Of a stretch of 64,000 nucleotides of DNA, positions 3,242-16,620 are shown one piece after another. How positions within the stretch are numbered: position 1 is the stretch's first letter; the number at the start of each line of letters is the position of its first letter. Origin of the DNA: Cytobacillus gottheilii. GTDB taxonomy: Bacteria > Bacillota > Bacilli > Bacillales > Cytobacillaceae. The notes below the pieces were generated by a model that was not told the origin of the DNA, made no database searches, and worked only from the letters and a program-made list of their open reading frames with translations. The translations under genes were made by a program, and so were the position numbers. The stretch lies in the NCBI RefSeq assembly GCF_001636345.1, contig NZ_KV440945.1, positions 2,871,354-2,935,353 on the forward strand. The letters are read 5' to 3'.

Positions 3242-5647
3242 CTACATTAAAATATACGGGTTTACGTCAATGGATATTTGCAGGCCGCCGGTGGCTATTT
3301 CTTGCTGGTATTGGTCAAGGACCGTTTTCAGCGCGCCATTAAGCTGTGGTTCCCGTTTGTATTTTACCAGACATTGATATCGATATCTATTGTTGATGCG
3401 GGGGATAGGCGATGCTACCGGTCCAAGGACAACTGCTTCATCTGATAGCTTTGCTCTCACCCATCCTGTAATTTTTTCTGTCACTGCCACTGCTTTCATC
3501 AGCTGTTCATGGCTTACAGTTATTAAGGATATATAATAGAAAGGCGGATATTTATGAATTTTGCGGATCATCATTTCCTTATCATAAAAACGGTCATAAT
3601 CCTGTGTACCAGCAAGTACTACACTGTAATGCTCAGGTGTGTACGTTTGGATGATAACCTCCCCTTCCAATTGATGCCTGCCTGCTCGCCCGCTTACTTG
3701 CGTTAAGAGCTGAAAGGTTTTTTCGGAGGAGCGGAAATCAGGCAAATGGAGCATCGTATCCGCTGAAAGAACGCCTACAAGCGTGATATTAGGAAAATCA
3801 AGCCCTTTGGCAATCATTTGTGTGCCAAGTAAAATATCTGCTTGTCCCTCTTGAAATTGGTTCAGCAGTTTTTCATGTGCTCCTTTTCTGCTTGTTGTAT
3901 CCACATCCATTCGGATGACTTTTGCTTCAGGCAGAACCTTCACTAGCTCTTCTTCCACCTTTTGGGTACCTGTGCCAAAATAGCGGATATGTTCACTTTG
4001 ACATTCCGGACAAACAGATGGAACATGGTCCTCATGTCCGCAATAATGACATTTCATTTGCCTGCTATATTGATGATATGTTAATGAGATATCACAATTT
4101 GGGCAATTGATGACATAACCGCAGTCTCTGCACATAACAAAGGAAGAATGACCTCTTTTGTTTAAAAATAGAACAGTCTGTTCTTTCTTTTCAATCCGTT
4201 CTTTTAATTTATCAAGCAGCACCCTGGAAAACATCGAACGGTTCCCTTCACGCAGCTCCTCTCTCATATCAATAATCGTAACAGCTGGCAGGGCTTGGTT
4301 GTTCATCCTTTTTGGAAGCTTGAGCAGCTTATAGACATCTTTTTGCGCTCGTGCAAATGTTTCAAGAGCAGGTGTTGCGCTGCCAAGCACGACTGGACAG
4401 CGGTATGTTTTCGCCCTTTCAATCGCCACATCCCGTGCATGGTACCTCGGGTTTTCCTCCTGCTTATAGCTAGTTTCATGTTCTTCATCAATAATGATTA
4501 TGCCTAGATTTTCAAAAGGTGCAAAAATAGCTGAACGTGCTCCAACCGCAACACTGACTTCTTTGCGCTGAATCTTCCGCCATTCATCATATTTTTCTCC
4601 AGCAGAAAGGCCGCTGTGTAAAACAGCTACCTGATCGCCGAATCTGCCTTTAAATCTAGTAACCATTTGCGGTGTTAATGAGATTTCAGGAACGAGTACG
4701 ATCGCTTCTCTGCCCTGTTCGAGCACTCGCTGAATCGATTGCAGATAAACTTCCGTTTTCCCGCTTCCTGTCACACCATATAGAAGAAACACTTCATGTT
4801 CATGCTGTTCAACAGAACGCCAGATTGGAATAATTGCATTATGCTGCTCCTCTGTTAAAGAAAGTGGAACCGTACTGGAAAACTGGCGCTCGGCAAAAGG
4901 ATCCCTGTACACTTCTAAATATGTTTCAGACAGCATTCCTTTTTTCACAAGACCTTTGATGACAGCCGACGACACTTCTAATACGTCTTCAATTTCTTTT
5001 TGGAATATAGGTCCTTCCTGTACCTGAAAATAGGATAGTACTTCTTTTTGTTTTGCTGCATTTGCTGGCAGCGATTTTATCCAATTTTCCAACTGGGCAC
5101 GATCTGGACAATAGATGGCCTTTAATTTCTTCTTTTTCACACGTTCTTTTACTTCATATATAAGTTCAATGCTGCCCTCTGCTACCGCTTTTTGCAGCGT
5201 GCGCATAGATGCATGGCTCGTTGCTTCTTCCCAAGTGATACTATCACGATCTGAAAAAAGCGGCTTTATAGAAGGATCAAGATTTTCAATTACATCGATC
5301 CGCTTCAGCTTTTTTTCATATTTTGCTTTTAAAGCAGCTGGAAGCATCGCTTGATATGCTGAAATCTTATAGCTGAGAGTGTGATTTGATAGCCAATCTC
5401 CGAGGGAAAGCAATTCCTTATTTAAGATTGGATTAAGATCCATCGGCTCGATCAGCTCTTTTAATGACTTAAAGTCTGATTCTGCCTTAATACCTACAAC
5501 GAAGCCTTGTATTTTTCTTGGCCCGAATGGGACGATCACCCGCATTCCAGGCTTAATGATTTCTATAAGGTGTTCTGGAATCAGATAATCAAAAGGCTTG
5601 TCCGTTTGTTTGGCTGGAACATCTACAATGACACTTGCAACATTCAT
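3242..5647 (-). CDS. priA: Primosomal protein N' (replication restart helicase PriA)
   Basis: 801 aa from the chosen start. PriA is a 3'-5' DNA helicase that reloads DnaB at stalled forks. Domains in order: N-terminal DNA-binding region, winged helix, helicase core with Walker A GVTGSGKTE (~291-299) and DEEH box IIIDEEHETSYKQ, then a two-zinc insert with eight cysteines (CRDCGY, CPNC, CHYC, CPEC), and helicase motifs TQMIAKGLDFPN and QVSGRAGR. The longest frame would start at 5674, but ATG 5647-5645 forms an ATGA overlap with the coaBC stop and matches the B. subtilis N-terminus (MNxAxVIVDV), so it is preferred. Confidence 0.96.
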   Translation of the reverse strand: MNVASVIVDVPAKQTDKPFDYLIPEHLIEIIKPGMRVIVPFGPRKIQGFVVGIKAESDFKSLKELIEPMDLNPILNKELLSLGDWLSNHTLSYKISAYQAMLPAALKAKYEKKLKRIDVIENLDPSIKPLFSDRDSITWEEATSHASMRTLQKAVAEGSIELIYEVKERVKKKKLKAIYCPDRAQLENWIKSLPANAAKQKEVLSYFQVQEGPIFQKEIEDVLEVSSAVIKGLVKKGMLSETYLEVYRDPFAERQFSSTVPLSLTEEQHNAIIPIWRSVEQHEHEVFLLYGVTGSGKTEVYLQSIQRVLEQGREAIVLVPEISLTPQMVTRFKGRFGDQVAVLHSGLSAGEKYDEWRKIQRKEVSVAVGARSAIFAPFENLGIIIIDEEHETSYKQEENPRYHARDVAIERAKTYRCPVVLGSATPALETFARAQKDVYKLLKLPKRMNNQALPAVTIIDMREELREGNRSMFSRVLLDKLKERIEKKEQTVLFLNKRGHSSFVMCRDCGYVINCPNCDISLTYHQYSRQMKCHYCGHEDHVPSVCPECQSEHIRYFGTGTQKVEEELVKVLPEAKVIRMDVDTTSRKGAHEKLLNQFQEGQADILLGTQMIAKGLDFPNITLVGVLSADTMLHLPDFRSSEKTFQLLTQVSGRAGRHQLEGEVIIQTYTPEHYSVVLAGTQDYDRFYDKEMMIRKIHKYPPFYYISLITVSHEQLMKAVAVTEKITGWVRAKLSDEAVVLGPVASPIPRINNRYRYQCLVKYKREPQLNGALKTVLDQYQQEIATGGLQISIDVNPYILM

Positions 5648-7379: not shown

Positions 7380-8003
<624 letters not shown>

Positions 8004-14030: not shown

Positions 14031-14098
14031 TTAGGGGTGTCGTGTGAAATAGAGTTTGGGTAGGCAATTCTTGAAAAACGTTTATTAATTTGGTTCGA

Positions 14099-14597
14099 GA
14101 ATTAGAATCCAAGAGTCATTCCTGATATGGTCTCAACCATGAAAATTCAGGAATTAGAATCCAAGAGTCATTCCTGAAACGGTTTCTACCATAGAAGTTC
14201 GGGAATTAGAATCCAAGACTCATTCCTAAAACGGACACAACCATGGAAATTCAGGAATTAGAATCTAAGAGTCATTCCTGATATGGTCTCAACCATAGAA
14301 GTTCGGGAATTAGAATCCAAGAGTCATTCCTAAAACGGTCTCAACCATGGAAGTTCGGGAATTAGAATCCAAGACTCATTCCTGAAACGGCCTCAACAAT
14401 GGAAGTTCGGGAATTAGAATCCAAGAGTCATTCTTGAAACGGCCTCAACCATGGAAATTCAGGAATTAGAATCTAAGAGTCATTCCTGAAACGGCCTCTA
14501 CCATGGAAGTTCGGGAATTAGAATCCAAGAGTCATTCCTGAAACGGCCTCTACCATGGAAGTTCGGGAATTAAAATACAAGACTCTTTCTCGAAACC
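14099..14597 (+). repeat. Tandem array of nine 52-bp units plus a decayed tenth
   Basis: Units begin with GAATTAGAATCCAAGAGTC at 14099, 14151, 14203, 14255, 14307, 14359, 14411, 14463 and 14515; a partial, diverged unit starts at 14567. The period is exactly 52 bp with substitutions but no indels. Each unit junction carries inverted arms (TTCAGGAAT or TTCGGGAAT with ATTCCTGAA) that can pair across ~15 nt. The array has no spacers, so it is not CRISPR, and a period not divisible by three with TAG inside rules out a repetitive protein. It lies between the rqcH stop and its terminator, so it should be transcribed in the 3' UTR. Confidence 0.95.
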
Positions 14598-14651
14598 CTC
14601 CCCTTAGTGTTTCATCCAAGCATATTTATAAAAGTTAATGAAACGATAAAC

Positions 14652-14802: not shown

Positions 14803-14829
14803 TGTAACTTTTCGATAGGCTCAAACGAG
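14803..14829 (+). promoter_or_regulatory. Candidate ECF-type promoter of the sigma factor gene
   Basis: TGTAAC (14803-14808), a 17-nt spacer, then CGAG (14826-14829). This resembles the SigX-type consensus TGTAAC-N17-CGAC. It lies about 40 bp upstream of the sigma gene start. Autoregulation would be typical for an ECF operon; this is inference from the motif. Confidence 0.5.
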
Positions 14830-14867
14830 TTATTAGTGTAGAGAAAAAAAGAAAGGGGGAAAATCAT

Positions 14868-15410
14868 TTGCCTGATCAGGAAAATTTAGAACAGATGATT
14901 CATCAACTTTATAATCGTCATTATCTGGAAGTATATCGATTCCTAATCTGTTTTTCTGGCAATCAAAATGATGCAGAGGACTTAACTCAAGAAGTATTTA
15001 TGCGTGTCTTAAACAATTCTTCTACTATACCAAGCTTAATTAACGTGAAAACATGGATCTTCTCAATTGCCAAACACGTTGCTGTTGACCACTATCGAAA
15101 AAAAAGATTTTCATCCCTTTTCACTGATGGGTTTTTCAAACAATTTAGATCTCTTGAAAAAGAACCAAATGAAATAGTTGAACAAAACGAATTAAAAAAA
15201 CTGGTACACACTGCCATTTCAAGGTTAAAGCCCCATTATAGAGCGGTAGTCATTTTAAGAGGAATCAATGAATTTTCAATTAAGGAAACCTCTTTCATCC
15301 TTCAATGCAGTGAGTCAAAGGTGAAGGTAGACTATCATAGAGCCATAAAAGAACTAAGAAAGAAGTTAGACATGAAATCTGTGGAGGTGATCGAAAATGC
15401 AAACGGATAA
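14868..15410 (+). CDS. ECF RNA polymerase sigma factor, SigX-like
   Basis: 180 aa with only regions 2 and 4, as in ECF sigmas. Region 2 includes DAEDLTQEVFMRVLNN (~37-52) and WIFSIAKHVAVDHYRKKR; region 4 includes LKPHYRAVVILRGINEFSIKE and SESKVKVDYHRAIKELRKK. The region-2/4 text most resembles B. subtilis SigX. It starts at TTG 14868 after a strong AAAGGGGG site. It overlaps the next gene by 14 bp, whose start has a GGAGGTGATC site inside this gene, a layout typical of a sigma/anti-sigma pair. An ECF-like promoter lies upstream. Confidence 0.85.
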   Translation: MPDQENLEQMIHQLYNRHYLEVYRFLICFSGNQNDAEDLTQEVFMRVLNNSSTIPSLINVKTWIFSIAKHVAVDHYRKKRFSSLFTDGFFKQFRSLEKEPNEIVEQNELKKLVHTAISRLKPHYRAVVILRGINEFSIKETSFILQCSESKVKVDYHRAIKELRKKLDMKSVEVIENANG

Positions 15411-16308
15411 GGATATTTTTAATCTAATAAAAGAAACCTACCCACAAGAACCTAGGGAAGAATTTGTTGAGTCCACTTCAAATAAATTAAAACAACGGGC
15501 ACGAAAATTAAACAGAAAGAAAAAAATCAAACGATTTCCTATAGTCTCAGCCAGCATTGCTATTTGTACACTTGCTTTATCGTGGTTTTTCTTTTATGGA
15601 GAAACAAATCTATTTACCAGTTACCTTACCTCTTTAGGAAGAGAAGAAAAACCTCAGTCAATCGTTAACCATCAAGACCCGCTAGTATTTATTTATCACT
15701 CACACAATACAGAGTCATTTTTTTCAGAAGCAAAAACGGATGACTCCAATCAGGCATTCCATGAAGATAGAAATATTTCATTAGTTGGAGAGAGACTTCG
15801 CCAATCATTGTTAAACAAGGGAGTTAACTCAATCCTTGATAAAACGGATATAATGGGGATTTTAGAAGAAAAAGGCTTGCCGTTTAGCCAAAGTTATACC
15901 ATTTCAAGAGATCCTTTAAATGCTGCTCTTGAAAAAAACCAGAGCATTAAGATGGTATTTGACATACACAGAGATTCAGCAAAAAGAATTGATACCACCG
16001 TCACATTAAACGGTAAAGACTATCCTCGGACTGCCTTTGTTGTTTCTCAATCAAGTGACTTTTTTGAAGAGAATTTAGAATTTGCAGAACTCCTTCACAG
16101 TAAAATAGAAGAAAAATATCCCACTTTGTCAAGAGGAGTTCTTATAAAAGCCGATACAAGCAAACAGAATACGTATAACCAAGACCTCATTGAACAATCC
16201 GTATTGATTGAAATTGGCGGAGTTGGAAACACATTAGAAGAGGAATATAGGACGGTTGATATCCTTGCTGAGGTAATTGAAGATATTTTACGCAATGAAC
16301 CGTATTAA
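15397..16308 (+). CDS. Membrane protein with cytoplasmic N-tail and extracellular SpoIIP-type amidase domain, putative anti-sigma factor
   Basis: 303 aa. Residues 1-46 are charged and likely cytoplasmic; one TM helix spans ~47-67; the rest should be outside. The outer part has the SpoIIP family landmarks IYHSHNTESF (H101, H103, E106), DIHRDS (H191, D193) and LIEIGG (E272), which fit the zinc-site residues of SpoIIP amidase/transglycosylases, so it may be active. SpoIIP proper works with SpoIID/SpoIIM in engulfment, but none are near. Coupling to an ECF sigma gene suggests its N-tail holds the sigma factor, as RsiX does for SigX. That role is inference; the domain call is firmer. Confidence 0.75.
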   Translation: MQTDKDIFNLIKETYPQEPREEFVESTSNKLKQRARKLNRKKKIKRFPIVSASIAICTLALSWFFFYGETNLFTSYLTSLGREEKPQSIVNHQDPLVFIYHSHNTESFFSEAKTDDSNQAFHEDRNISLVGERLRQSLLNKGVNSILDKTDIMGILEEKGLPFSQSYTISRDPLNAALEKNQSIKMVFDIHRDSAKRIDTTVTLNGKDYPRTAFVVSQSSDFFEENLEFAELLHSKIEEKYPTLSRGVLIKADTSKQNTYNQDLIEQSVLIEIGGVGNTLEEEYRTVDILAEVIEDILRNEPY

Positions 16309-16315
16309 ACAAGTA

Positions 16316-16352
16316 AGAGCGTCTCTGATTATAAGCAGAGACGCTCTTTTTT
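16316..16352 (+). terminator. Terminator of the sigma/SpoIIP-like operon
   Basis: A perfect 12-bp GC-rich stem, AGAGCGTCTCTG (16316-16327) with CAGAGACGCTCT (16336-16347), 8-nt loop, then a run of seven more T. It starts 8 bp after the stop. Confidence 0.93.
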
Positions 16353-16423: not shown

Positions 16424-16620
16424 TGAAAAATAAGCGGAGATTTTACCGTTATTTCCAAAAAATCGAGCTATTTTCGTACAAAATAAGCGGAGATATTCCG
16501 GTTATTTAGAATAAAATCGCCTATTTTCACGTTTTTATGTTAGTTAGTCGGAATTCCTCCGTCTATTTTAGCCAAATTTGAGTGATTTTACGATTTAAGC
16601 GGAATTCTTCCGCTTATTTA
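16424..16620. repeat. Modular hairpin repeat (AAGCGGA family), locus 1
   Basis: Four short imperfect inverted repeats lie about 50-60 bp apart. Modules near 16430-16455 and 16482-16507 have TAAGCGGAGAT with a CCGTTATT or CCGGTTATT partner. The third is TAGTCGGA (16545-16552) with TCCGTCTA (16558-16565), and the fourth a perfect 7-bp stem, AAGCGGA (16597-16603) with TCCGCTT (16609-16615). The same order of modules recurs twice at 34084-34520. There is no gene in the 377-bp gap 16309-16686 besides this and the terminator. Confidence 0.8.

Follow-up and report, generated by a model that had tools for sequence, protein, structure and literature searches.

To our knowledge, Gram-positive sensing of the cell's own wall condition, as opposed to antibiotics or lysozyme, is for the most part not yet explained. 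The nearest published ideas concern RsgI6 and RsiV: the GH10 domain of Clostridium thermocellum RsgI6 is described as having very low activity and was proposed to serve binding, with an autoregulated sigma factor (PMC4711584), and RsiV is reported to be cleaved upon binding lysozyme, a wall-attacking enzyme (PMC6066255). Here we describe a two-gene locus in a 64,000-nucleotide stretch of the Cytobacillus gottheilii genome (contig NZ_KV440945.1; the whole stretch is hereafter the window), where an extracytoplasmic function (ECF) sigma factor gene is followed by a gene for a membrane protein with a short N-terminal tail and an outer SpoIIP domain. The two genes form a conserved sigma/anti-sigma-type pair in which a peptidoglycan-hydrolase fold is the probable receptor. 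Loci and genomes in this analysis carry L- and G-numbers, respectively, G000 being the genome of the window. By its sequence, the locus would be an operon of two genes with one promoter before them and one terminator after:

14803..14833, + strand: ECF-type promoter with −35 element TGTAAC(TTTT), 17-nucleotide spacer and −10 region CGAGTTAT
14852..14867, + strand: ribosome-binding site region AAAGGGGG 5' of the TTG start, by inspection
14868..15410, + strand: ECF sigma factor gene, 180 amino acids, TTG start (open reading frame, Pfam, NCBIfam)
15397..16308, + strand: gene for the tail-transmembrane-SpoIIP protein, 303 amino acids, ATG start, proposed membrane anti-sigma factor (open reading frame, Pfam, NCBIfam, AlphaFold2)
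15397..15531, + strand: N-terminal tail, residues ~1–45, with a short helix, conserved P19 and a basic second helix, proposed to bind sigma (profile, AlphaFold2)
15535..15600, + strand: single transmembrane helix, residues ~47–68 (hydrophobic stretch by inspection; AlphaFold2 helix 21–66)
15679..16299, + strand: outer SpoIIP/amidase-fold domain, residues ~95–301, with active-site-type residues H103, E106, H191 and E272 (Pfam, alignment, AlphaFold2, structure matches)
16315..16348, + strand: intrinsic terminator, a 13-bp stem followed by a T run, at the end of the two-gene operon (hairpin scan)

Gene order and short overlap of this kind are typical of known sigma/anti-sigma operons. Both reading frames are present and overlap by exactly the 14 bp given in a preliminary description of this DNA, whose segment starts exactly at the −35 element and takes in the terminator at its end. 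The scanned region holds two terminator-like hairpins, each counted on both strands; shuffled sequences gave 1.1 on average.

The locus resembles RsgI/SigI, above all RsgI6 with its GH10 domain: as described in that report (PMC4711584), the arrangement is a cytoplasmic N-terminal part, one transmembrane helix and an exchangeable outer module, which is polysaccharide-binding in RsgI. The analogy with RsgI-type proteins drawn in the preliminary description is a fair one. Unlike in RsgI/SigI, however, the partner is an ECF sigma factor, the outer modules have the folds of peptidoglycan hydrolases or are otherwise related to the wall, and no RsgI_N match was found in the window protein or among 25 tails scanned at an E value of 1. 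With RsiV/SigV (DUF4179), as far as that system is described (PMC6066255), the locus shares a proposed membrane anti-sigma factor of an ECF sigma factor in Bacilli with an outer sensor, but the sensor proposed here has the fold of a wall hydrolase; no DUF4179 (PF13786) match is present in the window protein, and one tail relative, L090, scored below threshold (19.2 bits; cut-off 30.1).

Like RsiW and other class I anti-sigma domains (ASDI), the protein is of the membrane type, and the tail profile matched RsiW weakly (9.3e-6 in G130 and 3.4e-5 in G307) in the segment that follows the zinc helices and runs into the RsiW transmembrane helix; the solved RsiW chain covers the first 80 residues. 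This match is only a hint of homology and no proof, because most searched genomes gave no such match. The tail differs from these domains in its length (~45 residues) and in lacking helices 1–3 and a Cys/His zinc motif; instead of the four-helix domain of at least 50 residues that marks class I, its model has two helices, the second shared with the transmembrane segment. In class I domains, helix 4 is described as the one that binds sigma2, and domains of fewer than 50 residues were set aside by the authors as possible class II (PMC7406223). The likeness of the short tail to class II (CnrY type) considered here is one of length. Among titles and abstract openings of mostly open-access papers, no SpoIIP, SpoIID or IseA was described as part of an anti-sigma factor, and a search combining ECF sigma, SpoIIP and anti-sigma matched only sigma-K processing.

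The sigma protein matched Pfam Sigma70_r2 (2.4e-14) and Sigma70_r4_2 (3.8e-12), both above cut-off, and has no Pfam match to region 3, which is the make-up of an ECF sigma factor. It had been called SigX-like. The ECF assignment holds and the two best NCBIfam models are indeed SigX models, but both scores (120 bits against a cut-off of 260, and 116 against 239) fall so far short that the protein is an ECF sigma factor but not SigX proper, and SigX identity was rejected.

The second protein matched SpoIIP in Pfam (PF07454; 1.2e-64, 218.8 bits against a cut-off of 24.4) and TIGR02867 (1.3e-61, 208 bits against 123.15). Its AlphaFold2 model consists of a helix at residues 4–14, a long helix at 21–66 running into the membrane, and an amidase-fold domain whose best structure matches were AmiB, Ami1 and CwlD (E values 1.8e-7 to 1.2e-6). 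Together with the one hydrophobic stretch, these results bear out the earlier view of a single-transmembrane protein with a SpoIIP outer part. The nearest match in the named collection was from C. gottheilii Marseille-P3555 (95% identity, full length). Predicted local distance difference test (pLDDT) values in the tail were mostly 76–84, lower at the membrane, with a break between the helices around conserved P19. The tail is basic immediately before the transmembrane helix, consistent with an N terminus inside the cell. It belongs to no Pfam family, the 25 tails scanned giving only weak, unrelated names, and five sequences compared with solved structures up to an E value of 10 gave a best value of 0.58, none of the matches being an anti-sigma domain.

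The genus (36 genomes, E 0.01) and the order (397 genomes, E 0.001) were searched with a tail profile, A1, built from eight fusions. Ten genus genomes were matched, eight of which carry nine full-length fusions. The preliminary description had let the pairing depend on whether homologues of the second protein usually occur without the sigma gene; in the genus they do not, the sigma gene lying directly upstream in nine of nine fusions. In one, L010 of Cytobacillus praedii, sigma is frameshifted. The two remaining genus genomes gave weak matches only, a tail-only open reading frame (G003) and a probable chance match (G032), and G028 holds a tail-only frame in addition to its fusion. In the order, A1 matched 28 genomes, and after re-scoring every match above 27 bits adjoined a sigma open reading frame. 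The weaker matches included one true pair, L100, and two RsiW proteins. Five others (L096, L097, L098, L101 and L102) had no sigma nearby and were treated as chance, as was the match at L041/L047, a transporter-like gene by inspection.

With a profile widened to 25 tails (A4; E 0.001), matches were obtained in 48 of the 397 order genomes and in 32 of 398 genomes of the class, the two sets overlapping. In total, the searches yielded 69 distinct tails for which a sigma open reading frame ends at most 60 nucleotides away; a single G383 cassette accounts for three of these, as pieces or copies. Eight tail rows (four distinct sequences) had no adjacent sigma: the G003 tail-only frame, two RsiW proteins matched internally and a chance match. 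The tail-only frame of G028 falls under the 50-residue limit and hence is absent from these eight. At the loci inspected after the A4 searches, sigma was present in 28 of 29 from the order, the remaining one being RsiW, and in all 26 from the class (L229–L254); the 29 leave out rows of G407, G408 and G369, and the G307 row is L099 (RsiW).

The pair is also found on plasmids. Records matching the second protein numbered 32, eight of them over at least 80% of its length, and 7 of the 15 listed carry both sigma and SpoIIP annotations. In three Priestia megaterium plasmid records, sigma and a protein named stage II sporulation protein P in RefSeq overlap by 17 bp, and a Niallia taxi megaplasmid carries an unannotated sigma/tail-SpoIIP pair. 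The SpoIIP of an Alkalihalophilus pseudofirmus plasmid is of ordinary length, with no sigma beside it. Among viral contigs, 163 stretches matched a pattern and no relative was confirmed.

Several features were seen beside these pairs. At L010/L071 of C. praedii, the tail-SpoIIP gene is still open while the sigma gene is frameshifted. The tail-only frames of G003 (L045, ~4676–4890) and G028 (L046, ~4598–4800) are free-standing, ~45–50 amino acids long, with the same type of promoter and a ribosome-binding site, no transmembrane helix and no sigma, and sit 3' of a 382-amino-acid SpoIIP paralog and a small secreted-looking protein; each is possibly a soluble mini-anti-sigma factor or a remnant. 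G383 holds several copies of a sigma/tail-SpoIID cassette (L104, L105, L199, L200), one partial and partly masked, and some genomes of Bacilli family f68 have up to five tail matches.

Across the pairs, the tail stays alike and the outer domain changes. Clustering by blast of the part after residue 65 divided the 69 sequences into SpoIIP (37), IseA/NTF2-like (14) and propeller-like (10) groups and eight singletons; "propeller-like" and "NTF2-like" are labels by inspection, with Pfam support below threshold or none. The outer domain of L105 is SpoIID (TIGR02870, 8.7e-120) and that of L130 is the IseA DL-endopeptidase inhibitor domain (PF16800, 7.3e-14). L090 has a marginal DUF4030 match and the sub-threshold DUF4179 match given above. 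Among the outer parts from the class search, four of the nine scanned contain YcdB/YcdC repeats, and L245 has a sub-threshold RseB-like match. The L232–L240 loci of family f68 have similar-looking tails with a YcdB/PepSY-type outer part (Pfam scan on L232 only), and each one fetched adjoins sigma. On a sigma tree of 65 rows, with the SpoIID cassette represented by its intact copy L105, the outer-domain labels require 10 changes, and one 41-row branch unites SpoIIP and SpoIID with two proteins of the propeller group and three singletons; this is a quick tree with long branches, and its exact numbers are soft. The clearest swap is L083, whose sigma and tail are up to 74% and 66% identical, respectively, to those of SpoIIP-type pairs and whose outer part has no Pfam match or blast link. 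A tail kept beside sigma while the outer domain is swapped is as predicted for an anti-sigma tail joined to a sensor, and lends support to the earlier proposal that the N-terminal tail could be the anti-sigma part and the outer domain a sensor or effector module. Genus genomes also hold further SpoIIP paralogs of ~380–391 amino acids, with no tail or sigma and in other neighborhoods (e.g., L051, L052 and L055).

Promoters were counted when TGTAAC or TGAAAC was followed after 15–18 nucleotides by CGA or CGT, at most 110 nucleotides 5' of sigma; L089, L104, L089b, L010 and L091, where sigma is partial or broken, are left out of this count and of the distance comparison below. An ECF-type promoter was found in 54 of 64 pairs, compared with 0.6% of base-shuffled sequences. 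In its stricter form, TGTAACYTT, it occurs in 30 of the 64, 28 of them SpoIIP-type, and neither form was seen in 5 of 35 SpoIIP pairs. In the window's own genome, the operon promoter is the sole match to TGTAACN{16,18}CGANTNAT. One more site was found with a shorter pattern and another with two mismatches, but they look like chance because reversed-pattern controls gave similar counts. Because the promoter precedes sigma in most pairs and is the sole strict match in its own genome, autoregulation of the operon is likely; other targets with looser promoters may exist. Elsewhere, matches with no or one mismatch fell at pair loci, one site without a pair (G018), the tail-only frames (G003, G028) and a different conserved site, met in two copies (G004, G031). 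The G018 site (L196, G018:C15 ~7579–7609) looks like an empty or deleted pair site, and its 5' flanking gene resembles one beside the pair in L006 (G019). The conserved site, TGTAACTTTTTTTAGAGAGAGAACGACTATT with small variants, was found in 19 of the 36 genus genomes, some carrying the pair and others lacking it (e.g., G001:C1:3516169 and G005:C1:4186704) and is perhaps the promoter of another ECF sigma factor.

Alignment of the non-fused SpoIIP proteins gave H103, E106, H191 and E272 as the conserved set. The preliminary description had named H101, H191 and E272 as zinc-site residues; H191 and E272 belong to the set, but H101 was rejected, as residue 101 is His in only 23 of 37 fusions (Gln 11, Ser 2, Asn 1) and in 15 of the 33 non-fused rows with a letter there, and H103 is conserved instead. 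In Clostridioides difficile SpoIIP, two histidines (H142 and H222) are reported to be required for activity and no bound metal to have been detected (PMC6221140), so zinc at this site is an assumption. Judging from chain order, motif and the amidase fold, E272 is probably the counterpart of the amidase_3 catalytic Glu, which in CwlD is Glu199, a glutamate near the C terminus described as the putative catalytic residue (PMC8496864).

E272 is replaced in 11 of the 37 SpoIIP fusions (Asn 7, Asp 3, Gln 1) and is Glu in all 35 non-fused rows (Fisher p = 0.0004, the rows being related). On a tree built without the site columns, these replacements need seven changes. L062 (Neobacillus niacini) keeps E272 but has Pro, Val and Asn at H103, E106 and H191, bringing the fusions with a lost catalytic-type residue to 12 of 37. 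The 35 non-fused rows represent 32 genes (L042/L045/L223 are one and L044/L046 another), several of them near-copies, and two rows are gapped at H103 and E106; near-copies are also present among the fusions. Partial SpoIIP frames were left out of the comparison, and the plasmid proteins and class loci L229 and L230 lie outside the 37. The three Priestia plasmid proteins have Asn at E272 and the Niallia protein has Glu. A comparable loss is seen in the tail-SpoIID protein, which has Gly at the position of E101, the catalytic residue reported for C. difficile SpoIID (PMC6221140), as counted by hand with the construct offset in a phmmer alignment; the separate SpoIID of G383 and the SpoIID of the window genome keep the catalytic Glu. 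Ratios of nonsynonymous to synonymous substitution (dN/dS) were 0.24–0.27 for the Priestia and L009/L010 pairs (E272N), 0.19 for L131/L132 (E272D) and 0.30 for L062/L059, compared with 0.24 for two pairs with the residues kept; L080/L084 were too distant to score. Residue loss without decay makes catalysis look dispensable in part of the family, which favors a sensor role for the family, although the window protein may combine both functions, enzyme and sensor.

From these data we consider it probable that the second protein acts as a membrane anti-sigma factor and senses through a peptidoglycan-hydrolase fold put to new use, a design like that of RsgI6-GH10 except for the tail. The observed base is the pairing, the constancy of the tail while outer domains change, the ECF-type operon promoter and the repeated loss of catalytic-type residues under purifying selection; sigma binding, autoregulation, the signal, proteolysis and the regulon are what we infer. 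Sigma and the second protein would then be a self-contained cell-wall-signaling cassette. The ~45-residue cytoplasmic tail would bind and hold the ECF sigma factor, and the outer SpoIIP fold would act less as an enzyme than as a receptor that recognizes a state or a fragment of peptidoglycan. Gain or loss of this ligand would make the stalk accessible to a site-1 protease, whose cut would lead to intramembrane cleavage and sigma release. From the promoter at 14803, the freed sigma factor would then transcribe its own operon, and it may have other target genes as well. Of the parts of this reading, the anti-sigma role is very probable, and for the family as a whole a receptor role of the outer domain has good odds. 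A broader reading, which we regard as evenly balanced, is that a tail-type anti-sigma family in Bacilli, outside Pfam, repeatedly recruited parts of the wall-cutting machinery of the cell (SpoIIP, SpoIID and the IseA-like inhibitor fold) as receptors, hydrolases thereby becoming pseudoenzymes that report peptidoglycan state directly to ECF sigma factors. Two enzymes that work one after the other in engulfment would then each sense its own substrate, the SpoIIP fold peptide-bearing strands and the SpoIID fold denuded strands.

The main competitor, though an unlikely one, is that the second protein is an effector: an active membrane-tethered amidase or endopeptidase under sigma control that remodels the wall under stress, with the tail as a feedback inhibitor of sigma or a mere anchor. 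All four conserved residues are kept in the window protein and in 25 of the 37 fusions, and with the operon promoter as the sole match to the longer motif in its own genome, the second protein could be the main output. An effector is harder to reconcile with the replacement of E272 in 11 fusions and the wider loss in L062, under purifying selection, with Gly at the catalytic position of the SpoIID version, and with the same arrangement around outer domains not known as hydrolases (IseA-like inhibitor, propeller-like and YcdB/PepSY-like). It is much less probable that the two genes are co-transcribed neighbors without contact, the tail being a membrane anchor only and having no anti-sigma role. 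Sigma and tail distances are correlated (Spearman coefficient 0.67 for 64 pairs, compared with at most 0.16 in 1000 permutations), but joint inheritance alone could yield this, and no solved anti-sigma domain matched the tail by sequence. However, the tail stays alike beside sigma at the inspected loci while unrelated outer domains replace each other, the gene order and overlap match known sigma/anti-sigma operons, and, apart from a tail-only frame and a probable chance match, the tail matches without sigma are RsiW proteins, though weakly.

A duplicated engulfment gene, misplaced beside sigma and still serving sporulation, would account for the strong SpoIIP match and the RefSeq name of the plasmid copies, and the outer domains are homologous to SpoIIP and SpoIID of the engulfment machine. 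This is nevertheless the least credible of the alternatives, and a sporulation paralog was rejected on the separate canonical locus and the SpoIIP tree. The canonical spoIIP, adjoining a gpr-like gene (label by inspection), is at G000:C1:1653206, so that the window gene is not the copy in the gpr-side position of sporulation SpoIIP. The pair is patchy, occurring in 8 of 36 genus genomes in differing neighborhoods, and 34 of the 35 non-fused SpoIIP rows group on one branch, separate from the fusions (99% support in the Shimodaira–Hasegawa-like approximate likelihood ratio test, SH-aLRT). In contrast to engulfment SpoIIP and SpoIID, the proteins are sigma-linked, tail-fused and outside the canonical loci, and have lost residues in 12 of 37 SpoIIP fusions and one SpoIID fusion. 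The preliminary description had likewise thought an engulfment role unlikely, noting no SpoIID or SpoIIM nearby; the SpoIID gene is indeed elsewhere in the genome, at G000:C1:511544 (SpoIIM was not searched for).

Several points weigh against the anti-sigma and receptor reading itself. The tail that would bind sigma has neither a significant match to a solved anti-sigma domain nor a Pfam family. Among 35 SpoIIP pairs, sigma distances correlate equally with those of the outer domain (0.85) and the tail (0.85), so the distance correlation shows joint inheritance rather than contact, and was rejected as proof of the latter. No strict-consensus target beyond the operon stood out when its own genome was searched with the promoter motif, counts being close to those of reversed-pattern controls. 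None of the four residues checked is lost in the window protein or in 25 of the 37 fusions, the equivalence of E272 to the amidase_3 catalytic Glu is drawn from position, motif and fold, and the SpoIID evidence comes from one cassette, in several copies, in a single genome (G383).

Because the receptor folds proposed here have known substrates, the ligand can be guessed and tested. The data also suggest a signaling role for the products of some genes that carry the annotation stage II sporulation protein P, with the three Priestia megaterium plasmid records as examples, and the compact tail profile could be used to find further sigma/sensor pairs.

The flanks of the cassette in the window contain two distinct repeats. 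An eight-copy direct repeat with a 52-nucleotide period (14041–14648) lies just 5' of the cassette and 3' of an Rqc2/FbpA-like gene (label by inspection), and a different, two-copy repeat (16427–16528) lies 3' of it.

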